Source of the DNA: Henricia sp. BOLD:AAB3569
Taxonomy: Eukaryota > Echinodermata > Asteroidea > Spinulosida > Echinasteridae
Assembly: GCA_037783545.1 (NCBI GenBank)
Contig: JBBELK010000216.1
Span: 496,001-560,000, forward strand
DNA: 64,000 nucleotides
Direction: 5' to 3'
Below are positions 3,197 to 63,835 of this stretch, piece by piece. The translations under genes and the position numbers were made by a program. Numbering within the stretch: the stretch's first letter is position 1; the number at the start of each line of letters is the position of its first letter. The notes under the pieces were generated by a model. That model did no database searches. It was not told the origin of the DNA and worked only from the letters and a program-made list of their open reading frames with translations.

Positions 3197-3268
3197 TCAA
3201 AACTACATGTAATTATTAGTGTTCAATTGAATGGAATATTTAACTGTCAACTAAAATTCCCCAACACT

Positions 3269-33200: not shown

Positions 33201-36200
33201 AAGGCGCACAACCATATCAGCAGTTAGATTGTGGCATTCCCCCTACAGGGTACTCCTGGCGATGTTGACATTATTATTACTGCCATGATCAGGGAATCAC
33301 TAGAACCATTTCGTTTCAACTAGGTGGCTGCCTGGTCAAGGCGCACAACCATATCAGCAGTTAGATTGTGGCATTCCCCTACAGGGTACTCCGGGCGATG
33401 TTGCCATTATTATTACTGCCATGATCAGGGAATCACTAGAACCATTTCGCTTCAACTAGGTGGCTGCCTGGTCAAGGCAAACAACCCTATCAGCAGTTAG
33501 ATTGTGGCATTATTATTGCTGCCATTGGGAATCACCAGAACTATCTCACTTCATCCAGGTGGCTGAATTTTAAGTACCTTTTAAAAAAGAATCTTTTACG
33601 CTTTTAGATAAAATCCCATAATTTCCCCTCTTGGGGAGGGAGGAAGGGGGGAACACTGTAGTGTGACTTGCCCAAATTCCGTAATGTTTAAGGCAGAGTT
33701 GTAGTCAAGTCCATCACAAGTCCCTGGGTCTCAATTCAAATCACAAGCTTTTCAATTGAACCCCAACAAAGGCATTCTTTTGTGCATGTTCATCCTTTGC
33801 TTCTTGTTAGTGGACATGTGACGCGACTTGTGAGGGACTTGCGAATTGATCGGCTCTGGACTTGTGATAGACTTGCGATGGACTTGACTACAACCCTGAT
33901 TTAAGGTGCTGTTAAGTTCAACACACACAGACTGGGGCTTAGTATTGATCAGTTAATAACCAAACACCATATACACACCCAATTACAACAACAATGGTGG
34001 AAAAATAGACAATGTTATTCAGCCAAAATGTCCCCAATGAATTGAAAGGTTGGGGGAGTATCCCAAACCATAGAATATTGACGGAAAATCACAACCGTCG
34101 TAAAAAATCTTGAGAGCTACTTCCCCAAGTAATTACAAAGATTGTTAATGTTCTGCTTTTAATACGGAAACAAGGCACTCACTTTAAATTGTAAAAATAA
34201 AAAGTGAAAATTCTGGGCTAGACAGGATTTGCGTGTTAATCAGCCGGAAATCAGGCTTAATGAGGTTCCAGTTAATGTTTTAATAAAGCCAAAGCCCACC
34301 AGCATAAAGCTAGCTTTGTGAGTTTTGGAAAAGCCCGCTGATTTGTTTGACCCGACTGTTGTAATTTGAGAAAGTTGGATAGACAGGACTAGTGTCTCTA
34401 GGACTTACGTTGGCGCCAGATGCGAGACTCTGTACCATGAAACACACAGGGTTGGCAGCGTTACGGATGATAGCGACGGCATAGTCGTGGCTGGCTTCGC
34501 GTAAGTCGCAGCCGTTAACCTGTGCAAAATTCAAGATTTAATATAAACAATGGTGGTCTAATGTCTAGATGTTTGAATTTCATGGAGCTGTAAAGCGGGC
34601 CTCCCACTGTGCGATTTTTGCCACGAATTTTCTACGAATTGGTACGATTATCGGAGACTGCCTATAGACTCTACACACAATCATACCCAGTCGTACCCAA
34701 TCGTAGGAAATTCGTGACAAAAATCGCACAGTGGGAGGCCCGCTTTAGGCAGAACAATTTACTTAGGGCAAACATATGTAGTTTTACAAAAACGGGTTTT
34801 CAGCAATTGATTGTATGTTAATTTGTGTTGTTAGCAAGAGTAGCAGAATACCAGTCATTCGTTGAACAATTCCGGCTGTAACCCATTAACAGCTTCATGA
34901 AATTGGCCCCCACACTTGACACTTGTCCCTGGGATGACACTTTACTATACTTGCTATCTCCCAACCCGCCTGATTAGCACGTCAGATTTAACCATGATCC
35001 CTCTTTATGAAAAATAAAATCCTCATACAAAATGTTTAAGCAATTAAAATTATAATTTCAAATTGCAAACACTTCACAAATTTCACAATTTGTCACATTT
35101 CAACACGTCAACAATCGCTAACCTCCAAGATTCGATCTCCCGTCTTGAGGGCCCCCGTACGTCCCGCTTGGCTGTCATCCAATACGTGCTTGATGTAAAT
35201 GCCCTCAACAGGCTGGCCGTCCGTTGCGCGCCCTGATCCAAGAAAATTACGTTATAAATATAAAAAACTAATTTGTTCCATTTGCAATTTTTTTGATTTC
35301 AAACAATCTGGCATGAAGCAAAGAAATGTTATGTAGTAAAGTTGTAGTCCAGTCCATCACAAGTCCTCTAATCAAGCATTCACAAGTCCACCACAAGTCC
35401 CTGGGACTTCATTCAAGTCACAAGTTACATGTATTCAAATGAGCTGCAACAGAGGCATTAATTTGTGTGTTTATCCTTTGTTACATATAACTGGACTTGT
35501 GGACTTCTGATAGACTTGTAAAGGACTCGACCACAACCCTGGTATACATGCAGAGCTGCTAACCCTCCTGGATTTTGGGGAGGACATCTGGGAAAACAGG
35601 TTCATTCCGTGACTCCAAATACATCTAAAATCCAGGAGTGTTTTATCCCTGTCAGGACACACAAAATTAGTCATTTTCCCGAAGAATCTGTTGTAAAATC
35701 CGGGATGCTTGGCAGCTATGTACATGTACTTGATAAACTTCAAAATGCAAGAAATGACACACAAAAAAGGTTAAATGTTGTAAGAACAGAAGCCAGAGGA
35801 AAACAATTACTGAGCAAATGCATACAGTTAGTGAAATAAGGAGTAAAGTCTTAAAGATGACCAAAAACAAAACAAAACGTTAGTTGGTAACCAGTGCATT
35901 TTGCTATGTCGGTCTGTTAAAACAGGCGACTCAAACTGCATCACTTAAATTACAACAAAAAATTACTCAAACTTTTTAAAACAAATGCAAATCCAACATA
36001 AATCAGTCTACATGTTTCTAATTCAGCAATAGTGGCATGATTTTTATATTTTATAAATAAATAAAAAAAATAACGTTTAACCATAAAGCAAATTTAAACT
36101 AGAGCATTCAAACATGCCCAAACAGAATGCATAATATCAAATTGTTCTTGATACTAACCAAATCTTTTAGTTACTACCTCAAACGGAATAAGAACAAATT

Positions 36201-42200: not shown

Positions 42201-45200
42201 TGCATCAGCAGAAGTAGACGTTCCATGTCAAACTGTTGGTGGTGCCTATATTGTGAATTTGTACCCGATTTGCAGGAAAACGAATACCCTACAACCAAAA
42301 GGTGTGTAGTTGATGTTAAAACAATCAAGTTGTGATTTACCATCAACCAGAGGTCCTGTTGGGACATTATCGGGTGGCGGCGAGTCCCGGGATGCTTCCA
42401 TAGCTAACTGCATCTCATTGAGTTTAAGGAACTCCTCTGTGAAGGCGGAGACATCACGGTGGCCGGTGGGTGGGGCTTGATGGACTGAGGTGACCTGCTG
42501 TGGCATTATCATGGGCTGCAAATGGAGGAAATTTGTGATAAAAACTATCAATCAATTTACAGATTTTAAATCCTTTCAACATAAATACATGTGGGTCATT
42601 CTATAAATTTGGGGTCCAATTTTTCTGTCCCCTGTTACGTCTGACATCTTGCAAAATGTTGTAGTTTGTAAATTCAGGACATGTTCTTTAAATGCTCTCT
42701 ATTTCAAGGAGTGATTACATAAAGTACAATTCATAAAAATATGTTTTGAAGGCATTTTTAATGATACTTGTATGGCAAATGGAAGTATGTCAGGTGTAAC
42801 AGGGACAGGAAAATGTCACACGTTGGACCCCAAATTTATAGAATGACCCATGTATCTCATTCGTAAAACTGTATGAAATTCTTCAACAGTAATCTTTTCC
42901 GTTTTGCCACTTTGCGTATAACTTATTACACATGTTGCGTTCATTTAAAGTGCTGCAGGTCGGGTGATTTTTATTTGATCGTGGGCATTATGCACATTGC
43001 TGTAAGTGCACACATGCAGATAAACCTGCATCTAAACTATAAAGTATTTAAAACTAGCCGGGCCCTTATCATCCCACATGACATGTTTTCCACCAAACGG
43101 AATGTGTAAACTAAGGTATTTATAATAAACAAACTGGTGTACAATTTATTTACAAGTTTCTTGAGAACTGCAAACCTAAAGGATGAATTACCAACCTCCT
43201 CTCCAGTGAATTCACCCTCAGCAGGTTGAGGCAAAGGCTTAGCGACTCGGAGCACTACCGGGCCAGTCGGAGCCCCCTTCAAGGCTTGAACGGCCGTCTC
43301 CAGCGAGCAGTTATCCAAGTTACTATCATTGACAAAGACTAGTCGGTCACCAGGGACGAGTCGGCCGTCCAACTCGGCCACTCCGCCGGTCACGAGGCTG
43401 CGGATTACTATCACGGTCTTGGATGGGTTTAGAGGGTCCTACGATTAAAGGGATTAAACAGATTAAAAGGATTAAAGAAATTATTTTGACACAATTTTCT
43501 CAATACAAATGTGGATGCAGTGAAAAACAACTCGACTCCACCGGGATTCGAACCGCGGACCTTCTGCTTAAAGTGCAGACACCCTACCAATTGAAATATA
43601 AAGCCAACTGGTGGTTTCGAATCACGGTATTGCAGTTGTTCGTCACTAAAATAAAATTTCCAGATTCTACTATTAAAAAGTCTCTTACCTGATAATCCAG
43701 AATGCTAAATCCGAGTCCCCGATCTCCCTTAACGAGTTCCACTGTCTCAAGTTGGTCATTCCACAACGGAAGATTACTGAAGGAGTCCCTCGGCAACGTT
43801 GGGCCTCCATCGCCACGATTACTGGGCACGCTCAGAACTGCACCCGCTACACCGACCTCCGGGAATGGAACTGATGATTCTTGGAGACTGGCCTCATTTG
43901 TTACAAAGACGTCTTCTGCAACCATGACAATGGGGCTGTCTCGCTGAACGTTTTCAATGACTTGGGGTGGCGGTTCCGGTCGTTCGGGCTCGGGGAAGAC
44001 CGAGTGTGGATGGCGTGCGCAAACGATCCGTACGTGCACAGGAAGCTCTTTAAGAATTTTGACGACATCCACGTGATTCAAACCAAGCAATCTCTCCCCA
44101 TTAACCTATAGCACAAATTAAAAAAGTTTATTTTAAGCGAAAAATTATTATGTGAATATCTTACGCAACACTAACTTTTGTCACATGGATGTTTCTAGTG
44201 ATGAACTATTTCATTCACCTGTGACTTTAAATTTGATTTCTATGGTTGGAATTCATTTTGCATTAGTTGTTGCTAGGCAGGACAAGCTTTGTGGTCATTA
44301 CGTGTGTAATCATTACGTGTGTAATTTTGATGTGTGTAATTTTGACGTGTGTAATTTTGACGTGTGTAATTTTGACGCGTGTAATTTTGACGCGTGTCAC
44401 TTTGAGAAAAAGTGGTGTGGATAAAATTTGGAGTGAAACGAGGCAATGAAAATCACAGAATTAAAACAAAATGCTTTTAGCCCAAATTGATTTTGTGGTT
44501 TTTAGTGCGTCGTTTCAATCCAAATTCTCCTATACCGCTTTTTTTCTCAAAATAATGTGCGTTACATTTATACACAAAAAAAAGCTCAGGTTTACCTCCA
44601 GAAGTTCATCAGCACTCGTGAGTTGGCCATTTTGTCCAACAGGGCCATCAGGCAGGACAGAGCGGATGTAATGATGTGGTCGGACTTCCTCCCCAGACTC
44701 GTCAATATCCACCGTACCTTCAAGACTTATTCCCAGCCCGCCTCCTTCACGAAATTTGCTCAATTGAGCCACCTTGAAAGATGAAAAATAAGATGCCATA
44801 TTTGATACCCTGATTTAGCCAGGATTTTACACAAGATACCAATTTCATAAAGGTGTTTAAGCACAAAAATAGCTCAAGCACAAACAAAATCTTGCTTACT
44901 AGAGTGGGTTACCAGTAAAATCCTCATGCGATAGAAGTATGCGACTGGTATCAGGGACTATTTGCTTACCACAATCACTCACATGGAATTTTCAGCTGAT
45001 AACCTCATTTTTTTAAGCAAGGTTTTTCAAGCTTAAGTAATTTTCATGTTTACGCAGCTCCTTGAAATTGGCTTCAGAGGCCAATTTTCTAAAGATATTT
45101 AGCAGAAAATTGGTTTGCTTGATAAAAATGGGTTACTAGTCAAAATTGTATGTCAACTTGTGTTTTTAGCAAAAACAGCAGAAAACCGGTCAATTATAAT

Positions 45201-48200: not shown

Positions 48201-51200
48201 GGCTGTGGCTGTTGCTATGCTGTTTCTAAGCACTGTCATTGTCCGCCCATAGCAACGACATAGCAACAGCCATAGCCGCAGCCAAAGCCACTAATTCGGA
48301 TCCAGCCTAGGACAGTCTTGACCAAAATGCCAACATCCTAAACACAGACTATGCCAAACCCAACTTGAGACTGATGCCCAAGTAGGAATTATCTCACCCT
48401 ATCAGCTGTGCTGCCAGGAAGAACGGTCTTGACCATAATGCCATCATCCTTAACACCAACTATGCCAAACCTAATTTGAGACTGATGCCCAAGTAGGAAT
48501 TCACTCACCCGATCGGCTGTTCCACCAGGTAGAACAGTCTTAACCATAATGCCCACGTCTTGAACACCGACTATGCCAAACCCAAGTCCGGATCCGTCGT
48601 TGTACAGCTCTATCTGTTGAATTTCATGCAGGGGTTCATTGTTGACTTCAGGCAGCATTGGCTGTTTAACAAAAATCAAAGGCAGAGAAAACAAAAATAA
48701 AGTTCCAGAGGGCTTTACTATACAAACGAATGCTAGATAATAAACACAAAATTAAGAAGGACAATGTCACAATGTCAGAGTTTTTTTAACTTGTCCCATA
48801 AAGCCTAGTTTCCATATAATCGTAACGCGCATACGCAGGATGCAAACAACTGTAATGCAAACACTGACGGAAACAATCGGCAAAGCTAAACTTGGTTCAA
48901 CTTTGCCGACTGTCTGGGTTACTGTTTGCCTTGTTAGTTTGCGGTACTCTCTGCGTTTGTTGCGATGATATGGAAACCAGGCTTAAGTTGTGTGCATAGG
49001 ATCCCAGACAGTGGTTGGGTATAGTATTCGTTCCATTACCTGTTCTGAAGCAGAAGGCATCTCGTAATTTGCATTTTCTTCTGTCGCCTCTTTGTCGGCG
49101 TCAGCGGGTAGCTGGAACATTCCTCTTGCAACCACTAGTTCTACAACACCCTTGACTTTCTGTAGCATTTCAATGGCCTGATGAGAAACAAAAAACAAAC
49201 TGTTTTAATATTGCATGGAACATATTGCTATCATCAGGCCTCGACATTAACCAAGGCCACTGGGGAGGCCAATGGCCTCATGCCCTGCTGAGTTGGCCCC
49301 GATGCCCCTTCAAGGTATACACTTTCTGAGAACAATTTGGCCAGCATACGGTACCCTATCCTCTTAAATTTGTATGAGGCTTGTATATACACAAATGAAC
49401 AGTACACATTTGGACCCAAGTTGGCCATGGTGCCCTTCCAGTTGGCCTCAGGGCTCTTTGAAATTCGGACAAAATCAAGACCATAGTGACCTGCCTCTGA
49501 TTTTCACAATGTTGAGGCCTGAAGCAGCCCTAGGCTTTGTTCAATCATGCCATTGTGTATCAATTTGAACTTAAAAACAAATTCGCCATTATGGTATATT
49601 ATCTAAAATAATTTTTACAACAAATTCTAACCTGCTGATGCGAGACATTAACATCCAGAAGATGTCCATTGATGGCCAAAATTTGGTCGCTTTCCTGAAG
49701 TTCCCCGTTCCTGTCAACACAAACCACGGAAACTACAATCAGCATTTATTCAAGGGTGTTTTAGGTGTGTGTTGTCTCACGAAAGCTCTCAATTACATAG
49801 CTAAATGCAGAGTCACATGGATTACAGCCAAATTTAAAGTTAGTGACATGATGCAGACAACTTGGAAACTGCATGTAAATTACCTTCAACAACCAAGTTT
49901 TCAAGAAGCAGCACTTTTTAACCACTTCGCGATGCTAGGCATTTTCCAATTTATTCCCCTGGAGCGGGAGACTGCACTAGCAGTTTTGGTTATGCAGTAT
50001 ACATGTATGTCTCTGGGGCTGGAGACTTGATGACTAGTTTTTATTTTAAGTCGTAAATCAATCTTATTTTCCAAGTCCAGTCACGAGTCATTTTCTCCAG
50101 AGTCAAGTCACAGGTCAAAAACCAAAAACTGACTTGACCCCAAGCGAACAAGTTAAGAGACCAGCTCTGCCCTGGTCTAATTCATGGGCTAATTCTGTGT
50201 AACCGCCTCCAAGACACTCACACTTAGAACTGCATATGCAGTTCCTCGTTGAGAAGTGGTTAAGAAGCAATTGCAGAATACCCTACAACTAAGTAAAAAA
50301 TAACTTTACTGCTACTCCGTTCACTGGTTCTCCGAACACACTTCCCCTTAAACAAAATAAAATCTTTGGAAGCCACATAGTCTACCGAATGCTACTCTAG
50401 CCAAGAGTTGCTGGGTCTGCAATAGACCTTATGCGTAGCGGCCATGATAGAGGGCAGACACATTGTCACAGTTCATTATGCACGAGTAGGATCTATTGTC
50501 ACATCATTTAAATATGAAAATCTGTCCTCTATCATGGCCGCTACGCATAAGGTCTATTGTGCTTTTTTTTTATTTCTGTAAAATCTCTGAGTCAAAGAAA
50601 AACTGACTCACTTGTCGGCCACTCCATTAGGCTGCACCTGTTGTACAAAGATCCCCAATTCACCATGGTTCTCGCTCTTAAGTCCCACGACGCTGAACCC
50701 TAGACCACCCTTCTCTGGCTTCATTAACTTGATTGTTCGAACATCTCTGCCCATGGCCAACTCGGCTACTAAATCCATCAAAGAATCTGCTTCATCGATA
50801 ACGTCCTCCTCTGGGGGCGGAGCGAGAGGCGGGGCACTTTCCTCGGCTGTCGCCAATTCAACTTTATTAATTTCATCATCCAGGTCGATTTTGTTTTCGT
50901 AAGCAAAAGGATGTTCGGGCTCTGCATCAACTGGAGAATCTGGGTCTGCCTTTGGTTGCTCTTCGAGTACGAGTTCTCCCGATGGCATGAAATCGAACTC
51001 GCCGACTGGCTGTCCTGGAGGAATGGATTCGACGTGATCCCGGAGCTTACGCATAGAATCCTGAAGAGTCAATAACTGGGTGAAGAGGGGACTTTCCATC
51101 ATCGTAATCATGTCGCTGAGATCTTGGTCTAGATCCAAGTCTCCTTTTTGCTGGAGCTCATTCTGAATACTGTGCAGGAGCTCTACAGCGTGTTGGGTAT

Positions 51201-51690
51201 CTGTCCAAAGCAAAAGGAAATAAGTGTAAACATTTCAGGCTATGTCCACAGACTGTAGCTTGAAATTCCATGAGTCTATGGAAGACACTAGGCTTGATCA
51301 CGTTTCACTAACTCATGCATATTTCAAGATCTATGCAGCCAATAAATTTCGACTTGGCCCAAAATTTCTAGACACTTCAAAAGACCAAAGATTTGTTTTA
51401 AATTTGTCAACTAAACAGAGATCACAGATTATTACAGCTAAGACGGGACACAAGGCAAATGCAAGTTTCCTTGCAAGTCACATAACAGCTCACATCAAAA
51501 GTCTTGGGTCTCAAGAAACAGTCACAGTTTATTAGACTAGTCTGAGACTCAACTAAAGGCACAGTTTACAAATAACCCGATTCTTCATCAGGATATTAAA
51601 ACAAAATAATTAAAATCATAATAAAAATATGCAAAATGTCATGAAAAAAAAAAACAATTAAATTTCAAAAATACCTGCAACTAGAGCCAT
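12629..51690 (-). CDS. MPDZ: Multiple PDZ domain protein (MPDZ/MUPP1), 40 coding exons
   Basis: The gene runs on the minus strand from ATG 51690 to TGA 12631-12629. The 40 exons (listed in the following entries) total 7617 nt, 2538 aa, with all phases matching. MPDZ is a scaffold at tight junctions and synapses; its L27 domain pairs with PALS1 (Crumbs complex) and its PDZ domains bind C-termini of claudins, JAMs, receptors and others. The product has an N-terminal L27 (about 5-65) and 13 PDZ domains, like vertebrate MPDZ and unlike the 10-PDZ PATJ. PDZ13 ([14 protein letters not shown]) and PDZ1 ([18 protein letters not shown]) are close to the human MPDZ sequence I recall. Ligand loops in order: GLGF, GLGF, GLGI, GLGI, GLGF, GLGL, SLGI, GLGI, GLGF, GLGL, SLGL, SLGL, GLGF. 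Linkers carry low-complexity expansions absent from the human protein. An orthologue ancestral to both MPDZ and PATJ is equally possible. Confidence 0.95.
14067..14232. repeat. MITE with CAGCAGCCGATTTCACG ends
   Basis: Inverted ends GCAGCCGATTTCACGAAACT versus TGTTTTGTGAAATCGACTGC, with internal GCGCAAGCTGCGCAA-type repeats. Between MPDZ exons 38 and 39. Confidence 0.55.
15180..15300. repeat. Palindrome with GGAGCC microsatellite
   Basis: AAATCTCGACTTGGGCTC at the left mirrors the right end GGAGCCGAGATTTGG; the centre is TCCATGTAAACCACATGGA and the right arm contains GGAGCC repeats expanded five-fold. In the intron between MPDZ exons 37 and 38. Confidence 0.65.
15960..17541 (-). CDS. MPDZ: MPDZ exons 35-37: PDZ11
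   Basis: The end of exon 35 (17541-17306), 16641-16494 and 16077-15960, ending in phases 2, 0 and 1. PDZ11 (about 2213-2298) reads [20 protein letters not shown], then [20 protein letters not shown], then [20 protein letters not shown] and [12 protein letters not shown]. It matches human PDZ11 ([36 protein letters not shown]). Exon 36 uses a GTCAGA donor. Confidence 0.92.
16705..17075 (-). repeat. tRNA-derived SINE, family 1, copy 2
   Basis: Reverse orientation copy of 3269-3615: (ATT)n at 16705, GAATCCTTGGTATGAATACC block, and tRNA-like head near 17020-17075 (minus-strand TGGCCAAGCGGCTTAGG). Confidence 0.85.
17306..19282 (-). CDS. MPDZ: MPDZ exons 33-35: Pro/Ala-rich linker and PDZ10
   Basis: Exons 19282-18402 (881 nt), 18130-18047 and 17541-17306, ending in phases 0, 0 and 2. 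Exon 33 is almost wholly a Pro/Ala/Thr linker of about 260 residues ([36 protein letters not shown]) and then the PDZ10 start, [30 protein letters not shown]. The flanking human motif (CPIIPGCETTIEISKGRTGL) is conserved, which anchors the domain. PDZ10 (about 2103-2185) continues [20 protein letters not shown] in exon 34 and [20 protein letters not shown] in exon 35. The antisense strand is also open across the linker, an effect of its composition. Confidence 0.92.
19687..22114 (-). CDS. MPDZ: MPDZ exons 29-32: PDZ9 and acidic linker
   Basis: Exons 22114-22025, 20896-20795, 20701-20594 and 20110-19687, ending in phases 0, 0, 0 and 1. PDZ9 (about 1614-1698) is assembled from four exons: VHTFTINK, then [20 protein letters not shown] and [14 protein letters not shown], then [20 protein letters not shown], then VTLTV. 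The rest of exon 32 is a highly charged linker of about 135 residues (many EEE, KK and ENE runs) with no human counterpart that I recognise. The LINE remnant and 136-bp repeats lie in the intron between exons 29 and 30. Confidence 0.9.
20250..20390 (+). mobile_element. LINE 3' fragment (possible)
   Basis: On the plus strand a stretch translates to [20 protein letters not shown], like the W-N-S-L-P...S-x-x-x-F-K-x-x-L end of many LINE reverse transcriptases. It is short and embedded in the intron between MPDZ exons 31 and 32. Confidence 0.4.
20942..21445 (-). mobile_element. LINE (CR1/L2-like) 3' end, defective
   Basis: The minus strand encodes [20 protein letters not shown], then [18 protein letters not shown] and YGDRSF, the typical C-terminal region of CR1/L2-type reverse transcriptases. 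The usual following LWNSLP motif is lost by frame disruption. The element ends in an AAGCGCC..TATA motif and an (ATT)n tail at 20950-20970, as these LINEs do. It is 5'-truncated. Confidence 0.75.
21508..21885. repeat. ~136-bp tandem repeat, 3 copies
   Basis: Units starting AGGATAGGGCATGC at about 21508, 21645 and 21779, containing GGCCAAGTTGGCCTCAGAAA and GGCCTTGGTTAATGTC. A diverged inverted relative, including its left flank, is at about 49224-49450. Confidence 0.8.
22262..25053 (-). CDS. MPDZ: MPDZ exons 24-28: PDZ8
   Basis: Exons 25053-24889, 24277-24214, 23819-23741, 22982-22871 and 22420-22262, ending in phases 0, 1, 2, 0 and 0. Exons 24-25 are a Glu/Val-rich linker. PDZ8 (about 1486-1577) reads [20 protein letters not shown], then [20 protein letters not shown], then [20 protein letters not shown]. 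The human domain has [24 protein letters not shown]. The exon 27 acceptor is CAACAG at 22983; using the nearer TTAG would put a stop in frame. Confidence 0.92.
23441..23664. repeat. 14-bp perfect tandem array, 16 copies
   Basis: Sixteen units of GGTGCATGTGCCCT fill the intron between MPDZ exons 26 and 27, almost without variation. The unit is not a multiple of three yet has no stop codon in any frame, so it produces several overlapping spurious ORFs on both strands. Confidence 0.95.
23980..24116. mobile_element. Palindromic MITE (CTCGTCAGCAATGCGC family), copy 1
   Basis: Ends related to TTAAAGGCACAGGCTCGTCA; inner GAAATACGCAGCTCCAT mirrored as ATGGAGCTGCGTATTTC. Copies are at 59534-59675 and 61897-62036. 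Confidence 0.8.
24495..24615. repeat. Palindromic element with GTGGAATACGGCATAATG arms
   Basis: GCGCAAGTGGAATACGGCAT at the left is mirrored by ATGCCGTATTCCACAAGCGC at the right. In the intron between MPDZ exons 24 and 25; single copy seen. Confidence 0.6.
27258..27361. mobile_element. Palindromic MITE (GGATCCGAATTAGTGGCTTT family), copy 1
   Basis: Same tips as 48177-48308, with a shortened and altered centre (GGCAGACAATGCAAGTCC). It also creates a short artefactual minus-strand reading frame. Confidence 0.75.
27609..27719. repeat. Palindromic element
   Basis: Arms beginning GTGGCAGATCCAGCCTCATT and ending with the near complement, centre GGGGGTTGCAACCCCC. Single copy in the window. Confidence 0.6.
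29188..29445. mobile_element. MITE with TGGGTCATTCTATAAATTTG ends, copy 1
   Basis: A 258-bp element with terminal inverted repeats; sub-terminal CTGTCCCTGTTACACCTGAC mirrors GTCAGATGTAACGGGGACAG. Pairs with 42592-42850. Confidence 0.8.
30176..30263. repeat. 22-bp tandem repeat, 4 copies
   Basis: Units of CAACTAAATCAGATTGGTGG plus two bases, 1-3 differences between copies, within MPDZ intron 23. Confidence 0.8.
32140..33560. repeat. 137-bp tandem array, 10 full copies plus a degraded end
   Basis: TCACTAGAACCATTTCGTTT recurs at 32201, 32338, 32475, 32612, 32749, 32886, 33023, 33160, 33297 and 33433, i.e. every 137 bp (136 once, from one deleted C). A diverged unit follows near 33523. Units are nearly identical but fall into two types, CCTAGCCAAGG and CCTGGTCAAGG. 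Confidence 0.93.
34409..37100 (-). CDS. MPDZ: MPDZ exons 21-23: PDZ7
   Basis: Exons 37100-36922, 35232-35123 and 34519-34409, ending in phases 1, 0 and 0. A Ser/Pro-rich lead is followed by PDZ7 (about 1304-1396): [60 protein letters not shown] and CFMVQS. It matches human PDZ7 ([38 protein letters not shown]). The donor after exon 23 is GTAAGT and opens the largest intron of the gene. Confidence 0.93.
34591..34747. mobile_element. MITE with TAAAGCGGGCCTCCCACTGT ends, copy 1
   Basis: A 157-bp near-palindrome with both tips TAAAGCGGGCCTCCCACTGT. A full copy is at 54857-55003 and a copy split by other sequence at about 55210-55549. In the intron before MPDZ exon 23. Confidence 0.85.
35338..35544. 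repeat. MITE with GTTGTAGTCCAGTCCATCAC ends
   Basis: Inverted ends around a core containing ACAAGTCCCTGGGACTTCAT. A second member is at 33697-33899 (AGTTGTAGTCAAGTCCATCA). A weaker relative may lie near 50040-50170. Confidence 0.55.
37612..40508 (-). CDS. MPDZ: MPDZ exons 17-20: PDZ6
   Basis: Exons 40508-40438 (poly-proline, [13 protein letters not shown]), 39632-39457, 39088-38893 and 37695-37612, ending in phases 2, 1, 2 and 2. PDZ6 (about 1160-1248) starts [20 protein letters not shown] and has [20 protein letters not shown] plus [16 protein letters not shown], matching human PDZ6 (MIVRSIIHGGAISRDGR, ARAMLRRHSLIG). For exon 20 I chose the GAG/GTCAGT donor because it alone keeps frame with a CAG acceptor for exon 21; an earlier GAC/GTGAGG donor would need an acceptor at AAAGAG. 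Confidence 0.88.
37717..37944. mobile_element. MITE of the GGGGCCAATTTCAT family
   Basis: Ends GGGGCCAATTTCATAAAGCT and its complement, with AAGCAAACAAATTTTG-type internal blocks. Other members: 39952-40172, 44840-45075, 45079-45260, 53571-53785, 58094-58270 and a half copy near 34795-34910. This is the commonest MITE family of the window. Confidence 0.75.
38146..38490. repeat. Inverted-repeat element with CTATACACCAATCCGGT ends, copy 1
   Basis: Ends CTATACACCAATCCGGTAAC and its complement, sub-terminal GCCATAGCTGGGGGGC inverted as GCCCCCCAGCTATGGC, and a CpG-rich core. A second copy is at 55944-56232. Long apparent ORFs here are by-products of the palindrome. Confidence 0.7.
38588..38648 (-). 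repeat. tRNA-like SINE head
   Basis: On the minus strand: ATAGCTCAACCGGTAGAGCT (A box) and GGGGTTCGAATCC (B box) at tRNA spacing. The acceptor stem does not pair, so it is treated as a SINE head rather than a tRNA gene. Similar heads: 17963-18020, 19498-19560 and 43537-43605. Confidence 0.5.
39686..39936. repeat. Inverted-repeat element with AGGGAGGTTTAGATGCACGT ends
   Basis: The left end AGGGAGGTTTAGATGCACGT and the next 20 bp (AAAACGCAAACGTGAACG) are matched by the reverse complement near 39900-39933. The core carries a degraded tRNA-like B box (ATTCGAGCCC). Confidence 0.65.
40614..40927 (-). repeat. tRNA-derived SINE, family 2, copy 2
   Basis: Same order of blocks as 11284-11557: minus-strand tRNA-like head with TGGTCTAGTGGGATAGCGCA and a GGTTCGAAACC B box, then the CCTGCGATGGACTGGCATCC body. 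In the intron between MPDZ exons 16 and 17. Confidence 0.75.
41278..42515 (-). CDS. MPDZ: MPDZ exons 15-16: linker with coding minisatellite
   Basis: Exons 42515-42341 (ends phase 1) and 41741-41278 (ends phase 0). Exon 15 has a conserved-looking helix ([15 protein letters not shown]) before a Pro-rich stretch. Exon 16 begins with another helix ([20 protein letters not shown]) and then 12 units of PPPTVVAA (some PPQTVVAA), residues about 960-1070. The reading frame stays open because the unit is 24 bp. No PDZ domain is present; in human MPDZ the equivalent region is an unstructured linker before PDZ6. Confidence 0.85.
41336..41650. repeat. 24-bp coding minisatellite in MPDZ exon 16
   Basis: Tandem units of GTTGGGGGCGGGGCAGCCAC plus four bases, about 12 copies with few substitutions. 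The plus (template) strand is G-rich; the coding strand reads PPPTVVAA. Confidence 0.9.
42592..42850. mobile_element. MITE with TGGGTCATTCTATAAATTTG ends, copy 2
   Basis: A 259-bp inverted-repeat element; both tips read TGGGTCATTCTATAAATTTG on their own strand. The other copy, at 29188-29445, is in the opposite orientation internally. It is in MPDZ intron 14. Confidence 0.8.
43196..44772 (-). CDS. MPDZ: MPDZ exons 12-14: PDZ4 and PDZ5
   Basis: Exons 44772-44596, 44105-43689 and 43438-43196, all phase 0. PDZ4 (about 600-690) has [12 protein letters not shown] and [19 protein letters not shown], then [21 protein letters not shown] Glu/Pro linker follows. PDZ5 (about 776-866) has [20 protein letters not shown], then [20 protein letters not shown] and [16 protein letters not shown]. 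Both align with human PDZ4 and PDZ5. The exon 14 donor is GTTGGT; a GTAATT four bases further would break the frame into exon 15. Confidence 0.92.
44296..44400. repeat. 15-bp tandem array, 7 copies
   Basis: Seven units of TTTGACGTGTGTAAT type, diverging stepwise from CATTACGTGTGTAAT to TTTGACGCGTGTCAC, in MPDZ intron 12. Confidence 0.85.
45481..45902 (-). CDS. MPDZ: MPDZ exons 10-11: linker between PDZ3 and PDZ4
   Basis: Exons 45902-45741 (phase 1 to 1) and 45560-45481 (phase 1 to 0). Exon 10 is a Pro/Ala-rich linker ([18 protein letters not shown]). Exon 11 encodes a short conserved motif, [15 protein letters not shown], which corresponds to the human pre-PDZ4 segment TKWQRIMGINYEIVV and confirms the order. 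Confidence 0.88.
46148..47268 (-). CDS. MPDZ: MPDZ exons 7-9: PDZ3
   Basis: Exons 47268-47169, 46991-46900 and 46283-46148, ending in phases 1, 0 and 1. PDZ3 is about residues 415-505: [20 protein letters not shown], then [20 protein letters not shown], then [20 protein letters not shown]. It matches human PDZ3 ([31 protein letters not shown]). Acceptors end CTGCAG, TTGCAG and TTTAG. Confidence 0.93.
46367..46833. repeat. Possible DNA transposon remnant with ATGCATAGTTCCGAG ends
   Basis: In MPDZ intron 8, ATGCATAGTTCCGAG at the left pairs with TCGGAACTATGCAT at the right, enclosing about 440 bp without a recognisable ORF. The target site was not resolved. Confidence 0.4.
47704..48661 (-). 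CDS. MPDZ: MPDZ exons 5-6: PDZ2
   Basis: Exons 48661-48509 and 47955-47704, phase 0 at both ends. PDZ2 is about residues 286-368, with GLGFGIVG in exon 5 and GDIILQIG...[15 protein letters not shown] in exon 6, matching human PDZ2. The intron between them contains decayed tandem copies of the 3' half of exon 5 with its donor site, and a MITE (see findings). Exon 6 continues into a Gln/Ala-rich linker and ends at GATATG with donor GTACGT. Confidence 0.94.
48100..48502 (-). pseudogene. Decayed tandem copies of the MPDZ exon 5 3' half
   Basis: Downstream of true exon 5 there are three further degenerate copies of its last ~80 bp plus donor and intron start, in units of about 112 bp. Copy 2 (about 48388-48502) is still open, reads [18 protein letters not shown], and retains a GGTGAG donor and a possible CAAATTAG acceptor. 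Copy 3 is split by a MITE at 48177-48308. Copy 4 is a fragment at about 48100-48143. Confidence 0.75.
48177..48308. mobile_element. Palindromic MITE (GGATCCGAATTAGTGGCTTT family), copy 2
   Basis: Near-perfect inverted repeat with outer ends GGCTGGATCCGAATTAGTGG and its complement. Copies are at 27258-27361 and 56291-56412. This one interrupts a duplicated exon fragment in MPDZ intron 5. Confidence 0.8.
48800..48986. repeat. MITE with AAGCCTAGTTTCCATAT ends
   Basis: AAGCCTAGTTTCCATATAAT mirrored by ATGATATGGAAACCAGGCTT; the core contains GGCAAAGCTAAACTTGGTTC mirrored by AACTTTGCCGACTGTC. In the intron between MPDZ exons 4 and 5. Confidence 0.65.
49040..51690 (-). CDS. MPDZ: MPDZ exons 1-4: L27 domain and PDZ1
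   Basis: Exons are 51690-51675 (coding part of an exon starting at acceptor 51758, so the 5' UTR is spliced), 51200-50612, 49710-49632 and 49177-49040; junction phases 1, 2, 0, 0. The first exon gives only MALVA plus one base. Exon 2 holds the whole L27 domain ([13 protein letters not shown]...[14 protein letters not shown]), an acidic linker, and the start of PDZ1 with GLGF. PDZ1 covers about residues 156-247 and continues through exons 3 ([16 protein letters not shown]) and 4 (ELVVARG). The start ATG sits in ACAACATGG, and its exon is preceded by a stop-containing leader. Confidence 0.93.
50420..50559. mobile_element. MITE hairpin with CAATAGACCTTATGCGTAGC ends
   Basis: A 140-bp near-perfect palindrome: CAATAGACCTTATGCGTAGC at both tips, with a GGATCTATTGTCACATCATT core. 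Between MPDZ exons 2 and 3; diverged relatives in PRKCSH introns and its 3' flank. Confidence 0.8.
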
Positions 51691-52577
51691 GTTGTCTTGT
51701 TTGTTCACGTCAAAGTCCAATTGTAAATTACTCAAGTAGTATCATCTAGATACAAACCTGCATCAAAAAGAAAGAGCAAATTTAAGCAACAGGAAAAAAT
51801 TGTAACATCACCTTCATTACAAATGTCAAAACAAAAAGTTGCATAAAAGCTGAACAAATTTCAGTCAATGGGCATTGATGACTGGCTCTTACTGTACCTG
51901 CAAGAATAGATATGTAGTTTTGGGATTTGACGCAAAATGATCAATCTAAAATGTTGAACATTAACTTGGTGACCTTTGAACAGGACAAAATCCAATGAAT
52001 TATATTTTGCTCAAAATGTTTCATGCACATTGTATAAGAAGTACGGAGTGCACAAAATTGGTTACACATTAAATGTTTTCAAAGTCCTATGGCCTACCAT
52101 GTATACACTCACTACTTTCTGAATAAACTGTTGTCCCGCCGCGAAAAAAAAGAAAAAAAAATCTTCACTTGTATACCAGAATTAACTACATTTGGAATTA
52201 TTTTTAGCAACCAATTACAATCATGGTTTATAAATAATCTGGTGACACATTACATTAGGTGTACATTATCGAGTTGTCTCCCCACCCCAAACTGTCTGTG
52301 ACCCATTTTCTATCTTTCCTTTGGGTTGGGAACATACTCAGGATGCTGACTCAATCCCCAGCGGCCAGTAAAGGATTTCTCCTGGATTAATTCATTTCTG
52401 GAAAGGAAAGCTCAGAACATGGTCTTGTGGTTCAGATGAGACAGAATCGTGACAGGCCTGGACATGAAAGCATGAAGATCTCTGGGTGTCTTGCGAAGCG
52501 TAGAGGGTTGGGCATGATGGGAGAGATTGGAGCAAAGGTTGAAATGGAAAGAATTGGTACCCAAAGGTACCCGGAGG

Positions 52578-53400
52578 TAGCTAAGATAATCTCAGCTCTT
52601 TTTTTATCATTTTTCATTGGGATGTGGTCTTTTCACGCGTAGAGCTGAGAGAACTTATGAACATGAACCCGCCATCGCAAAAACAGGACAAAACAAATGT
52701 GTCATTTTCTCACCGTGACACACTAATTCCCCCTAAAACTCACCCAAACCTTGCCAGGCATAACCACTACGCAGGTCCTTGAGGGAAATAACCAGCCACG
52801 ATGATTATTTTGCCAACAATTCCAACAAAACAAACCGGTATTCTCACAGCCAGTGCTGTTGTCTTGTGTTTTAAATGATAATGTGTCTTCTCGTCGCGTG
52901 ACCCATAGTCTGTGTACAAAGGAATTTTTATGCGCGTCGGTTACCAGTGCACATGCGGCCTACCAGTCAAACCTATTTCGCTGTGCGGACGTGATTACGA
53001 AATAGGTTTGACTGGTAGGCCGCATGTGCACTGGTAACCGACGCGCATAAAAATTCCTTTGTACACAGACTATGGGTCACGCGACGAGAAGACACATTAT
53101 CATTTAAAACACAAGACAACAGCACTGGCTGTGAGAATACCGGTTTGTTTTGTTGGAATTGTTGGCAAAATAATCATCGTGGCTGGTTATTTCCCTCAAG
53201 GACCTGCGTAGTGGTTATGCCTGGCAAGGTTTGGGTGAGTTTTAGGGGGAATTAGTGTGTCACGGTGAGAAAATGACACATTTGTTTTGTCCTGTTTTTG
53301 CGATGGCGGGTTCATGTTCATAAGTTCTCTCAGCTCTACGCGTGAAAAGACCACATCCCAATGAAAAATGATAAAAAAAGAGCTGAGATTATCTTAGCTA
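52578..53400. mobile_element. Perfect 403-bp inverted repeat (foldback element or assembly artefact)
   Basis: The left arm 52578-52980 and right arm 52998-53400 are identical as reverse complements over all 403 bp compared by eye, around a 17-bp loop (CTGTGCGGACGTGATTA). Directly outside, ACCCGGAGG is present at 52569-52577 and again at 53401-53409. The tips read TAGCTAAGATAATCTCAGCT. No protein of known type is encoded. Confidence 0.9.
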
Positions 53401-54856
53401 ACCCGGAGGTAGATTTTTTGCTAACGTGTAGTTGGTGCGTTGACGGTGGCCCGGAGCTACGCGGTATTAAAATAACAAGCCGGAGGTAGGTTGAAGCATG
53501 TACTACACGGTCACAAAAAAATTATACCTCCGGGTTACCTCCGACCTCCGGCTATCTCCAGGGGCCAATTTCATGGCGCTGCTAAGCACACAAATTTGCC
53601 TAGCACAGGATTTATTTGCTATAAAAAATTGATTACAAGCTAAAATTATACGCAAAGAGTAGGAGAATACCTTTCAGTACACATCGATTTTGATTTTGGC
53701 TGGCAATCCATTTTTGCAAAATAAAGCAAACAAATCCTGTGCTAAGCAAATTTTTGTGCTTAGCAGCGCCATGAAATTGGCCCCAGGTTTCAACGACACC
53801 CAAACATGCCAAAGAATTGAGAAGTTGATCATGACTTCAGACCAGGCTTGTGTACGTACAAAACATATAAATTATGAGAACATTTTTATGGTTCGAAATT
53901 TTGGGTTTTTCCATCAAATCTGCACACATTCCAATGCTAGAGTCATTTTAAAGAAAACAAATTCTGATCAACTTCTCAACTGTCACCCTTAATTTTTTTC
54001 TCCGTGGTCAACCGGTGTCAACCGGTGTCAACCGACCGTCAGCCCTTGACCAAATTGGTGTGGTAAAAAAAAGACACTTTATGATGCGCTGTATCAACCG
54101 TATCACGTACCCGTCAACTCTTGCAGACAATGTCCACTTTTGATTCAAGTTCAGTTTGCATTCTTGGCCTTCAAAAATTGAAGTTTTTCTGTGACGACGC
54201 GACGACGACCAACCCACTTTGCAAATCAAACGGCATACTACTTTAGTATCGATTATTTGGATTTGTAATAAACATATGTTGGAATCACTGCACTTCGTAC
54301 AGCTTCGTACACGTACACAAGTGCATGTCCGTACGCGTTATCGATTCGCTAGCAGGTCATGTCGGACCCAAACCAAGGCTGCTTTCGAGCGCGGCACCAG
54401 GTGCTCCATGGTGCTCCACGTGCTCGCCCGAAAGCGTGTGTAAGCATGTGTGTGACGTAACGTTTCCACCACCTGGGAGCACCAGGGACGAGTGCTCGAA
54501 AGCAGCCCAAGTCGGACCCGGACCAAGTCGGACCCGGACCAAGTCGGACCCACGACCAAGTCGGACCCACGACCAAGTCGGACATGGACCAATGAAGTCG
54601 GACCCACTACCAAGTCGGACCTGGACCAAGTCGGACCCTGACCAAGTCGGACCCTGACCAAGTCGGACCCATGCATGACCAAGTCGGACCCAATGTATTT
54701 GGTGCATGCAGTTAGTTTTAGACGTTGCCGAATGTGCTGAATAGGCCCTATATATTTGTTTAATAAATATGTATTTCTTATTAAATGTGCCCTAGTATAT
54801 TTAAATTTTCGTATGTCCAGACTTTTATGTGCAATTTCTATAAATCATGGGATCAT

Positions 54857-56412: not shown

Positions 56413-58551
56413 ATATTACCTAACATTCGTGTCGTCCGCTATGTTCTCACGAGGTGCAAATAACTCAAATCCCATGATTTATACAAATTGCACATAAAAG
56501 TCGGCATTCCTTACTTTTAGGCCACCCATTTTTGTAATACCTTTTACAGCTGTAAAACTGACTTGTTTGCACTAATTTCCTCTTTTGTGGAAACAACCAA
56601 CTCTTCTTCATTCCTCTAATCCATAGTTTTTAACTTTTGGAAATCCGAAAATTTAAATATAATAGGGCACATTTAATAAGAAATACATATTTATTAAACA
56701 AATATATTCAGCACATTCGGCAGATTGGAATGTTAACGTCTAAAAACTCCTGTCTTTCCTTCCTCCATGCAATAATCATGGAGGAAGGAAAGACTTTCCT
56801 TCCTCCATGCAATAACCAAGCAGGGGTCCGACATGGTCCGGGTCCGACTTGGTCCAGGTCCGACTTGGTCGTGGGTCCGAGTTGGTCCGGGTCCGACTTG
56901 GTTCGGGTCCGACTTGGTCTGGGTCCGACTTGGTCGTGGGTCCGACTTGGACGTGGGTCCGAGTTGGTCCGGGTCCGACTTAGCCTTTTGTCAAGGCCTC
57001 GTGAATTTGGGCGATTTGGTGACTTGAGTAGAGTCTATACGCGCAGAGTGAATTACTCACTTGGCCTTTTTCGAACTGACAGGCAATTCTTATGTTTTTC
57101 TTTATTTTTGCTACCAAAAGTGGTAGCAGAAATCAGCCAGTCACGTGCAGGTCACTCCATGCAAATTACGCAGGGAGCTCCTACAAACAAGGGAGGTAGG
57201 CTTACGCTTTTGAATTTACTGGGTACATTAAACGGCAAATAAATTAAATCAAATGGGAATTATATTAGTTCCGTATAAAATGTTGATGTAATAAACAATT
57301 TATGTCAAATATAAACGTATTTTCATGAAGCTCGATGGTTTTGTGTCGAAGTAAATATAAGTGCCGTACCTACGTTGGTAATGAACGAGGCCATAACGCC
57401 GCAAGCCATGTGATTGGTCAATTTGTCCTGCGGGAACTGTACGTGACTTGCATCACACGCGCGCGTGCAAAACAAGCTCCTAGCGCCCATTGGCTCAGTT
57501 GAATGTTTGTTTTCGATTTCTGTTTTCAAAATCTTTACGTGCAGAGTGGGGCGTGGGTAATGTTGTGACGTTGCACATTCGGGTCAACTGCTTGCATGTA
57601 ATGAATAATGTAGCAGTTGCCAGTTCGAAAAAGGCCTTATGGCAAAACAGAAGGCATAGCGTTTGCACAGCCTTCGTATACTCCGCTCAAGACGCCCAAA
57701 CCCCAAAGCCATAAGGCCTTGTCAAAAGGCTAGGTCCGACTTGGTTTGGGTCCGACATGACTCGAAACCATCGATTCTACTGGTATCGACAGCTTCGGTA
57801 CTGGCTGAACCAAAAAAGAATCGAATATACTGCTCCAAGATGGCGAACAGCGAAGTAAAAATTCTCTTCGCATGAATCATTAAAAAATTTGAATAAATTG
57901 CATCTGCTGTGGTGGTTTTCTATTTTTATGTGGCCAAAGTATTTATGTTGTATAAGAGATAATTATTGGGTAAAATAAACGCAATTAAATGTTGCTACAA
58001 TTACCAAAAAAAATAGTTTGCCTGTTGAGACTGATGCTGATGATTATTTACATGTGCGCTTTGCTATGGGAGACTGAAAGGACCGACCACGGGTCAATCT
58101 CATAAAGCTGTTTAGCAGAATGCTTTATAAAAACGAGTTTTCAGTCAAAATCTTATTCATGAGATATTGACTGCTGTTGTTCTGCTATTCTTCCTAAAAA
58201 CACAAGTTGACATAAATTTTGGTCTGTAGAGCAAATTTTTTTGCTAAACAGCTTTATGAAATTTGCCCCAGATAACTTGTCATTTGTGGACTCTGCTAAT
58301 GTTTTTGCTTTTTTTTTAAATTTATCATCTTTAATTCAACCAAATTCTGATAATTATGAACATGAGATTTAAGAAAGACCAGTGCTTTAAAATGCAATTT
58401 TAAATTTTATTTATTTATTTATTCTTTCCACGATATTATTATTAATATTTGTTTAAGTAACTGACACTTTTTTTTCATATTCCATTTCAGTGAGGTCCTC
58501 AGTGCACGGTGATACCAGGCCCATCTCCATGTAATCCCAAATTCAACAGCA

Positions 58552-61551
58552 ATGAGGTCGCGACATCCAAGTGTCGGGACAGAATCATGGCTCGGTCGCA
58601 GTGCAACAAACTCCATCATCATTACTGTTATTGTATCGGCTTTCATTCATAATGCCATTGCCCAAAGTAGCGATGATGATATCAGGTGTAGCGAACTTCA
58701 AACAGGACAGTATCCTTTCTCGTCATTGACTTCGGAGAACTCAAGACATTTGGCTGTAGTAGAACTTAAAAAAACAAAAAAGGATTTATTTCAGTGGTTT
58801 TTTCCCCCTCTAATAACATATCAAGGTGCCAACGTTATTATTACCCATGGTCACAGGGCTCCATTTAATCACTCCATATATCATCCTATAGCTCCCTGGG
58901 AGTATCGGCTGCCTACCAGGCACTCAGTGGCTAATCAAACATTTACTACCCTCATAGGCACCCATTTACTCCTAGGTGGAGAGAAGCAACGCGTGGCAAA
59001 GTGTCTTGCTCAAGGGTACTTGTACCATGGATGGACTGGAGCAGGATTCGAACCCACAACCTTTAATATGATCCAATACAAGCAATACAAGATGTACACA
59101 AATGTTGCAGCTGGTCTGAACTTAAAGCCCCTGTGAAGTCCTCTCACAAGATTTTTGATTTCATAAAGGAAGTGCCCTTTGAAACAACAAATTTCACTCA
59201 AAATAGGCAACTGGCAGTGCCTTTTTAGAGGGGACATTCTTTTCCTGATGAAGATTGACAGAAAAATACAACACAATTTAAAACATTGACCCCGTTTAAT
59301 TATAAGGAAAAAAGGTTATTATTCGGTTCTAAAATGTTTGACCAAAGTTAATACAAGTGTAGGTTTCCTTGACGAGTTCTGTCAGATATGTGTGCAAGGA
59401 TCCAGTCATTGACCCTGAAACGCAATCTGCTAAAGGTTGTACGCAAGATAGAATTGTTATTGGTAAGAGATGCTAAATATTGTTATTTTATGATTATTTG
59501 TCAGATTTTTGCAGGGCTCATTGTTGGGTATGACTTAAAGGCAAAGGCTCGTCAGCAATGCGCACGCGCCAAATTCGTGCCGCGAAATACGCAGCTCCAT
59601 AGCCAAGGCATGGAGCTGTGTATTTCGTGGCACGAATTTAGTGCGCGTGCATTGCTGACGAGCCTGTGCCTTTAACAGTAAGCTTTGACAAATACCCCAG
59701 TTGAGGTGTAATTTGTATCAAGAATGAGAAGGACATCAGACTCTAATTTTGTTTATTACGAGTCACATCAGCAATGAATGTTTGTGTATTTTCTCTGCAG
59801 TCGACTGCATGCCAGTAGCCGGTACAACATGCGATGGCGAGTTTTACAACGGTTCTACCGTAGCTCCGGATTTAAAGAGAGAAGTTCCATGCAGATATAC
59901 GTAAGTATTGCTGAATCAAACATAGGCCTATCCTCATGCTGGAGGATTTAAGTTTATGGTGGGGCCTCAACTGACTGCCTACTAAAGAGAAAGGAATACA
60001 CATTCAGTTGAAAGATTTATGCAGCCACGCAACTTTTCAGCAAACCTTGCCCCGGAGTATCATTGCCAAGCGATCTAGTACCTTACTCAAAACCTTAATT
60101 CTGCAAATCATGAGTCTGAATTCAGGCCTGCCATGGGAGGGTCCATAATGTATGTGTGCTCTTGGGCAAGGCACTTTGCCATAAATTGCCTCTCTCTGCA
60201 CAGGAGCAAATGGCACCTGTGAGGGCAGTGAAGGTGTTTGATTAGTTCATGATGAATGCCTAACGAGCAGCTGGGGCAGTATGCTCCTCAAAGAGCTGAG
60301 AAGGTTGAATTAAGAAACACTATTAAGAGCCCAACAATCGGGGGTAATAGTGCATGGGAAGTGCCATCATGTATGTGATATGTGTGCTATATAAATATCC
60401 AGCCGATTATATTTAGCCAATTAGCTGACATCTTTTGGGGTCCTCAGTAGTTCCATTGAAACTTGACGATAACAACAAAAATACAAAATCTGACATTTTT
60501 GGAATTTCTCTCTTTTGTTGTAATGAATTGAAATGAAATATACTAAGGAATTTAAACCCAGAACTTCAGAGCGTTGCTCCCCAAAGATTGTTGTGACAGT
60601 CTTGTTTTATTCCTTCATAAATCCAGGACTGGCTACTCCTACAACACCGCCCTTCTCTTGTCAATCTTCCTTGGAATGTTCGGCGTGGATCGTCTTTACC
60701 TCGGCTACCCGGCCCTGGCCTTGCTCAAGTTCTGCACCTTTGGATTTCTCTTTGTTGGTCATTTCTTGGATGTCTTATTGATAGCTATGCAGGTAGGTGC
60801 TCTTTGATTCAAGAATCTGCAAATATGGACTCAATCCTACAAAAAGGACAAGGCATAATGCCGTCCAAAGTTGTCAACATTTTCAAGGTTCTTACAAAGC
60901 GTAGGAAGGGGGAGGGGGTTGGGGGCCGCGTGGGACTTTATGCTCTAAATGTTGACATTTCTTGGTAGTGACAAAAAATGTTGATAAGTAGCATTTCAGG
61001 GGGAGGGAGGGAGTCTTGAAAAATGCTACTCTCTGTAGAACTGTAAAAATGTTGACAACTTTGGACAGCCCCTAAGCATGCAGTTGAAACTCATTAATAA
61101 TAATTTGTAACAGTGCTCTTAGTATCGAAGTTCAACTGTATTACTTTGGAAAATTTTGTGGGAGTACAGTGGCTGAGTGGTTTAGGACACTGACTTAGGT
61201 CAACTGCAGGTGGAAACACCCTGATGAGGTTGTGGGTTCAATTGCTTCATCCTTCAGATGGGATGCAAAGCCGTAAGCCAATTGTGTTATGTAATGCACT
61301 TAAAAGATCTTAGAGCATTCATTTCTCCAAAAAATCCAGATAATTGTTTATCAAGTGCAAAATATTTGCAAACATTGTTGCTGGATTCCCTATGTTTATA
61401 AGAATTCTTGTTGATAAGTTATTTTCTGTATTTTTCACTGCAGGTTGTAGGCCCTTCGGACGGATCTGATTACATCATAGATTATTACGGACCTGTGCTG
61501 CAAAGGACTACGATAGATAACCACACATACTTATTGCCCTACACAGACTGA
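58552..61551 (+). CDS. TM2D1: TM2 domain-containing protein 1 (beta-amyloid-binding protein family)
   Basis: Five exons: 58552-58709, 59386-59462, 59801-59900, 60627-60792, 61444-61551, phases 2, 1, 2, 0; 202 aa (human about 207). TM2D proteins (Drosophila amaretto, almondex, biscotti) act in Notch-related and phagocytic pathways; human TM2D1 was found as an amyloid-beta binder. Order seen: signal peptide about 20-37; a Cys-rich ectodomain (CSELQTGQYVCKDP, GCTQ, DCMPVAGTTC, VPCRY) parallel to human CEDLKVGQYICKDP; two membrane segments (NTALLLSIFLGMFG and CTFGFLFVGHFLDVLLIAMQ) joined by VDRLYLGYPALALLKF; then VVGPSDGSDYIIDYYG. YLGYPAL..LKFCT and the YIIDYYG tail identify TM2D1 rather than TM2D2 or TM2D3. 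The conserved DRF motif is DRL here. A SINE lies in intron 1. Confidence 0.93.
58842..59060 (-). repeat. tRNA-derived SINE, family 3
   Basis: On the minus strand, GGGTTCGAATCCTGCTCC leads into the CAAGACACTTTGCCACGCGT and GGAGTAAATGGGTGCC body and further to ATGGAGTGATTAAATGGAGC. The last part matches 15740-15800, so that piece is the same family. Confidence 0.65.
59534..59675. mobile_element. Palindromic MITE (CTCGTCAGCAATGCGC family), copy 2
   Basis: Ends TTAAAGGC in both orientations, so the target may be a TTAA-type site. In TM2D1 intron 2. Confidence 0.8.
60105..60260 (+). repeat. tRNA-derived SINE family 3 fragment
   Basis: Contains TTGGGCAAGGCACTTTGCCA and a GAGGGCAGTGAAGG..TTTGATTAG stretch equivalent to 9100-9195. 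In TM2D1 intron 3. Confidence 0.5.
60860..61073. repeat. MITE with GTCCAAAGTTGTCAACATTT ends, copy 2
   Basis: Better preserved partner of 9960-10157, in TM2D1 intron 4. Confidence 0.6.
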
Positions 61552-62036: not shown

Positions 62037-62584
62037 ATAATGTAATAAATATAAACAACATCAATGTTAGAGGTGTAATGTAATGTATATAATGTAAACA
62101 TGTACATAATTTACTTAAACCATTCTGTTTTGTTAAAACATCATGTTTGTAAAGGAAAGTATGTACTAGTGTATATGTGTGATTTACACTTTTAGAAGAA
62201 TAAAGTGATTTTTGAACAAACCCTCAACAGATATAATTGTCCAGTTATTGTAAGATTTGTATTTTGTTAACATGTCTACTTTAAAAAGAAATTGCACTAA
62301 AAAGATTCAAACACAATTGTATATGTTCTCCTTTCCTAGTTGGGAAACATTTTCTACTTTATTTTAGATGTAAAGAGAAGGAAGGGAAAGGTGTAACTTC
62401 TTAAAGGTATACTGTCTGTATTAAGAAAGAATTTTCATTTTGAGAAATAAATTTGAACAAAATTTAAACAATATTTCAAAGTTACCATTGAAAATGATAA
62501 ATCGGTCAAAAATGTCCACCGATGGGGAAAAGATGGAATAATATTTAAAGTGAAATGATAATTCCTTTATTAGTTTTATTAGAG

Positions 62585-62957
62585 GGGTACCGTGGCCGAG
62601 CGGTTTAGGTCATTGACTCGCAATCATAGGTGAAAACTTGGGGTTGCAGGTTCGAACCTCCCCACGGCTACGGTACCTGTGCCCTTGGGCAAGGCACTCA
62701 ACCACACTTGCTCCATCCTTCGGAAGGGATGTAAAGCCGTTGGTCCAGTGTGTTAGGTAATTTGGAAACGCACTCTAAAGATCCCAGAGCATTCTTTCGT
62801 GAAGAGCAAGGGAGATCATCCCCGGTGTCTCTGGCCATTTATAATTCTAATTCTTCATGGGTTTCCTCACGCTTGCGAGTGACAGTACAATGAGCACTAT
62901 TGAGGAATCCTTGGTATGAATACCAGAAAGAAATAATAATAATAATAATAATAATAA
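62585..62957 (+). repeat. tRNA-derived SINE, family 1, copy 3
   Basis: Best preserved copy: head with TGGCCGAGCGGTTTAGG and GGTTCGAACC, full body, and (AAT)n tail to 62957. Confidence 0.88.
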
Positions 62958-63835
62958 ATCTGAGTCCTGTTTCTGACGTAGTTACTAATTCAACAAAATG
63001 ATTGGTTGAATCAATGTTACGTCAGAAACATGTTTCTGGTTATGGTCGCGAAAATCCTACTCATCAAAGTTTGACGGTAGATGGCGCTCTTCATGTTTTA
63101 CGGTGGCAAATCTTCATCATACGTAACGTACGCGCCGCGGCGATGAGTGACTGATATCGTTGGAATGTTTCATCTTTTGTTGCCCAAAACCGGTTTGGTG
63201 GGTTATTTTTTTCTCGATCTTTTGTGATAATATTCTGAATGGATTGAGGTTGTTATGGTATCCGCATTTTTGTCATTTTAGGAAGTTTATACCGCGATTA
63301 CAATGCCTCAATTTAACTGTGCGTTGTGTAGTGTTGTTTACATGGTAATTTAGTACTGCTCGAGCTGCATCCATTTCGTGATAAAACGCAAATGACTTGG
63401 GAAAGAATTGAGAAGTTGATCATGGCTTCAGACTTTGTTTGAAAAACAAAAATGTTGGTATTTTTTCCGTTTTTGAACAAAGATTTTAAGGAAATTAGCC
63501 TACTTCCTGGAATCAACAGATCATCCAGTTCTAAGATATAGCCCTAGGGGGGCCTACTTCCCACTCACTTGCACTTCTGTCAGAAATGTTGCATTTCTGA
63601 CTGAGATAAATAAATAATGAATTTACTGCAGAGATTAAATGGACAAAATCATGGCGTGAGTGCTCCGTGCGTAAGCATATATAGAGGGCACTGCATGCAC
63701 ATTTTTTTCAATTGATAAATTGCATAATTAATAATAATATTACATGTATTACATATAACATGCTAGGCCTACATGTATTGTTCTCCTTTTGCATTACTAG
63801 CTTTTTCAAAGATGATCCCGTAACGACCGGCAACC

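Follow-up and report, generated by a model that had tools for sequence, protein, structure and literature searches.

A perfect 823-bp palindrome flanked by a 9-bp direct repeat in the sea star Henricia sp., probably a recent foldback-type insertion

A 64,000-nucleotide stretch of the genome of Henricia sp. BOLD:AAB3569 (Echinodermata; Asteroidea; assembly GCA_037783545.1, contig JBBELK010000216.1, positions 496,001 to 560,000 of the forward strand; hereafter the window) contains an exact palindrome of 823 bp at window positions 52578-53400. Its most probable identity is a non-autonomous DNA transposon of the foldback type that was inserted recently and duplicated 9 bp of its target site. As such it would be a small transposon of a palindromic kind that is already known, and there is good support for the view that it behaves as a foldback element. 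Regarding its family, for which structure is the sole basis of assignment, we lean towards a MULE as a structural guess. The features of the locus are as follows.

52569-52577, plus strand: left copy of the direct repeat, ACCCGGAGG, presumed target-site duplication
52578-52980, plus strand: left arm of the palindrome, 403 bp, starting with TAGCTAAGATAATC
52590-52650: inverted 10-bp motif, TCTCAGCTCT at arm positions 13-22 and its complement at 64-73, mirrored in the right arm
52981-52997: central loop, 17 bp
52998-53400, minus strand: right arm, 403 bp, exact reverse complement of the left arm
53401-53409, plus strand: right copy of the direct repeat, ACCCGGAGG
53401-53540: older decayed palindromic repeat, the joined reading of which starts at 52565, left of the element

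As expected of foldback elements, long inverted repeats form most of the sequence (806 of 823 bp, or 98% of its length), and a direct repeat, ACCCGGAGG, abuts both ends. The two arms are complementary at 403 of 403 positions and are separated by a loop of 17 nt (CTGTGCGGACGTGATTA), as the first-pass annotation of this DNA had described. The outer end of the element is the complement of its outer start (TAGCTAAGATAATC), and the 6 bp at its extreme end, TAGCTA, are self-complementary. The predicted single-strand DNA fold of the element with its flanks has an energy of -543.6 kcal/mol, compared with a mean of -101.0 for 20 shuffled sequences. The same annotation had set these arms apart from the decayed miniature inverted-repeat transposable elements elsewhere in the window. 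Among 66 pairs of exact inverted arms that measure 12 bp or more and start no more than 1500 bp apart, the second longest arm measures 39 bp, about a tenth of the length seen here, and self-BLAST (E up to 1e-10) lists at least 13 other, decayed palindromic repeats, with a self-identity of 66-87%. A flanking direct repeat of at least 8 bp was found in three of 18 palindromic or inverted-repeat candidates when end shifts of up to 8 bp were allowed, namely the element and the repeats at 4352-4756 and 424-544.

The direct repeat was presumably generated as a duplication on insertion. On the plus strand of the 64 kb, ACCCGGAGG occurs only at the two ends of the element, and it is found once in inverted orientation, at 53527. 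As had also been noted at first pass, the 9-bp repeat can be extended, in this case to 12 bp (ACCCGGAGGTAG), because TAG is the start of the left arm and also of the host sequence that follows the right copy; the 9-bp reading preserves the symmetric ends of the element. For a single fixed pair of positions, the probability that 9 bp match is 5.3e-6 from base composition and 2e-5 from observed pairs (159 of 8,145,447 over 129 sampled spacings, with tandem arrays and overlapping windows included). At a spacing of exactly 832 bp, six of 63,159 9-bp windows match; a 12-bp repeat yields four overlapping 9-bp windows, and therefore four of these six should be the ACCCGGAGGTAG repeat itself.

In the mechanism that we propose, a trans-acting transposase, most likely one of the Mutator/Foldback (MULE) group, would recognise the two identical ends and insert the element at a staggered cut of 9 bp, the fill-in of which would produce the ACCCGGAGG duplication. 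The 17-bp centre between the 403-bp terminal inverted repeats (TIRs) would then be a remnant. Transposition, the superfamily, the trans-acting transposase and the recency of the element are all points that we infer from the sequence. The inverted motif TCTCAGCTCT is a possible transposase-binding motif. However, the self-inverted score of the arm (23) does not favor this idea, being close to the mean of 200 shuffled sequences (23.9; maximum 43).

The absence of any difference between the arms (0 of 403 positions) bounds their divergence at about 0.7% (rule of three, upper 95% limit), which points to a recent insertion provided that the arms evolve independently. Gene conversion between the arms, which may keep them identical, or polishing of the consensus would remove this inference. 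Instability is expected of long perfect palindromes that have hardly any spacer, and this expectation together with the clean 9-bp duplication suggests that the insertion is very recent.

Several candidate identities were rejected. The longest open reading frame (ORF) of the arm (78 amino acids, present in both arms) has no Pfam match, which argues against a coding element, with two frames of 65-66 amino acids lying outside the scan. A bacterial insertion sequence or plasmid contaminant was rejected because no match was found in Escherichia coli genomes (megablast) or plasmids (blastn), and an exact search of IMG/VR with a 21-base end of the element gave no match. A known RNA family was rejected as well, since the sole Rfam match in the window at the gathering threshold is a transfer RNA (tRNA) at 43533-43605.

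Some observations weigh against a foldback-type transposon. Within the 64 kb, blastn (E up to 0.1) revealed no other copy of the arm, and a search that allowed up to two mismatches gave no other copy of the 14-bp element end. No transposase gene was found in the window either, where nine of 202 ORFs of at least 70 amino acids were scanned and no systematic transposase search was made. Tandem subrepeats were not found inside the element (score of at least 50). Finally, removal of the element does not improve the older palindrome in which it appears to lie: the joined flanks have a self-complementarity score of 44, compared with 46 for the right flank plus the last 23 bp of the element.

This last point concerns an older repeat at the same site. 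The right flank sits in a decayed palindromic repeat that extends to 53540 (102 of 154 alignment columns identical, 20 gaps). With the flanks joined, the score of 44 was reached by none of 500 shuffled sequences, and the right flank on its own scores 38, which equals the highest value among those shuffles. The element appears to have been inserted into the left end of this older repeat, and the position of the right flank within it fits a younger, nested insertion. The argument from a reconstructed empty site is neutral rather than supportive, because the joined score is no better than that of the alternative. The older repeat also bears on a concern raised in the first-pass annotation, that the direct repeat may be local background. 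The concern is partly explained: the similar motif nearby, an inverted ACCCGGAGGTA at 53525-53535, forms the far end of the older repeat that holds the right-hand ACCCGGAGG.

Among other explanations, an unlikely one is that a longer transposon with long TIRs was truly inserted and that its centre was lost in assembly or its arms were polished to identity, so that the palindrome is partly an artefact. Perfect identity over 403 bp around a 17-bp spacer is compatible with such a history, given that this structure is hard to sequence and assemble and that reads from one arm may correct the other. The window contains no Ns, although a silent collapse would still be compatible with this. The 9-bp direct repeat speaks for a real insertion whether or not collapse or polishing took place. 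A local inverted duplication through replication template switching, with the direct repeat derived from motif-rich surroundings, is very unlikely. Similar motifs do recur at 53480 and 53525-53553, but ACCCGGAGG itself is confined to the two ends and one inverted occurrence, the arms end symmetrically at it, and the window holds no further copy of the arm. Even less credible is a strand-switch foldback artefact of sequencing or assembly involving no transposon: such artefacts yield perfect inverted copies, as seen here, but they would not be expected to leave the two arms bounded exactly by a 9-bp direct repeat, and the chance of such a match is about 5e-6 to 2e-5. Of the options listed at first pass, a very recent element, foldback or Mutator-like and non-autonomous, fits best, with its exact symmetric arms, 9-bp repeat and lack of a Pfam match in the longest ORF of the arm, whereas a bare inverted duplication and a bare sequencing foldback do not predict the direct repeat.

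The window contains other repeats of related shape. The imperfect palindrome at 4352-4756 (405 bp, 66% self-identity) is adjoined at both ends by an exact 8-bp direct repeat, TTCTTTAT, and may be an older element whose insertion duplicated 8 bp; a related piece is located at 63457-63599. The palindromic repeat at 424-544 (85% self-identity) has TTTGGGTTA repeated near its ends when each is shifted by 2 bp, which may be due to chance, since the test tolerated shifts of up to 8 bp. At a distance of about 1.1 kb from the 823-bp palindrome, inverted arms at 54488-54819 and 56638-57002 (273 of 371 columns identical, 45 gaps) enclose about 1.8 kb and are partly built of 16-bp tandem subrepeats. In shape, this locus resembles a Foldback element whose TIRs contain subrepeats, and no direct repeat of at least 7 bp was found with end shifts of up to 60 bp. 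In addition, a dispersed repeat family is present at 16703-17078, 62579-62954 and 3266-3609, and two of its copies, in inverted orientation, are 97% alike, which suggests recent activity. Tandem arrays are found at 32148-33511 (137-bp unit, 10 copies, 97% matches) and 23440-23670 (14-bp unit, 16.5 copies, 99% matches).

The recognised coding stretch nearest to the element is a minus-strand ORF at 50608-51234. It matches Pfam L27_2 (37.8 bits, cut-off 27) and, at 21.5 bits against a cut-off of 23.2, the beginning of a PDZ domain. Such a combination is seen in the MPDZ/PATJ group; the name MPDZ comes from the first-pass annotation and presumably applies, in agreement with what is known of that gene. 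The element is close to the start of a gene that resembles one for an animal cell-junction scaffold. A splice acceptor of this ORF is presumed at 51200, 1378 bp from the element; an additional 5' exon is therefore likely, and the first intron of the MPDZ-like gene may hold the element. The earlier description of the palindrome as upstream of MPDZ is roughly right, with the L27_2 match above its cut-off and the PDZ match slightly below, although a first-intron position is possible. Elsewhere in the window, a TM2-domain ORF is located at 60556-60807 (plus strand), and a glucosidase II beta-like ORF at 5129-5362 scores 34.3 bits, just below the cut-off of 34.9. Such a set of genes suggests animal DNA. 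The tRNA match (minus strand, 40.8 bits, gathering threshold 29) falls between ORFs of the PDZ gene.

The element is ordinary in kind and clean in form. A palindrome with such a clean duplication points to a source of transposase that is possibly still active, and the locus is well suited to tests for polymorphism. If the palindrome is instead a polished consensus, it provides a useful warning regarding assemblies of such loci. A bolder scenario, in which a mobile family of perfect hairpins of about 820 bp is active here and the double-stranded RNA or cruciform from the copy at MPDZ affects that gene, is speculative and rather improbable.

In comparison with known systems, the Drosophila FB elements typically carry tandem subrepeats within the TIR, and no tandem array is listed inside 52578-53400, which separates the element from FB in the strict sense. 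The arm does have one repeated 10-mer, the copies of which are non-adjacent. Merlin elements produce duplications of 8-9 bp, and the length of the duplication cannot separate Merlin from MULE. The TU elements of sea urchins likewise have very long inverted repeats and an invertebrate host.

Foldbacks in sea urchin are mentioned in a paper which also states that foldback structures may arise in different lineages (PMC4079207). The same paper describes Tetris of Drosophila virilis, which resembles the element in its foldback shape, its lack of coding capacity and, with duplications of 8-10 bp, its target sites, and which its authors placed in Mutator on the grounds of its structure and the length of its duplications; unlike the element, with its 17-bp centre, Tetris contains a middle domain as well as tandem repeats in its interior (PMC4079207). 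Muta1, a MULE of Aedes aegypti, has duplications of 8-9 bp and a palindromic terminal motif (10 bp and imperfect, the counterpart here being the 6-bp TAGCTA), but differs in being coding and 3198 bp long, with 145-bp TIRs that contain 12-bp tandem repeats (PMC5225508). For MULEs in general, duplications of 8-11 bp are given as typical, a range that includes the 9 bp found here, and TIRs are often hundreds of bp long (PMC6446971). Within that survey, Rehavkus matches the element in its 9-bp duplication and in listed TIRs of 26-400 bp (Table 1), whereas its listed hosts are arthropods and annelids (PMC6446971). Tm1, a Mutator/Foldback family of root-knot nematodes, which together with Tetris comes nearest to the element in structure, differs in having composite TIRs with repeated motifs and 7-bp terminal motifs (PMC3169594). 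The structural likeness includes long inverted repeats, non-autonomous members resembling miniature inverted-repeat elements, and mostly 9-bp duplications: 45 of 53 complete Tm1 elements have duplications of 8-10 bp, 9 bp being the commonest, and a minority (five of 61 elements) share with the Henricia palindrome the feature of identical TIRs, against a mean TIR identity of 93.15% (PMC3169594).
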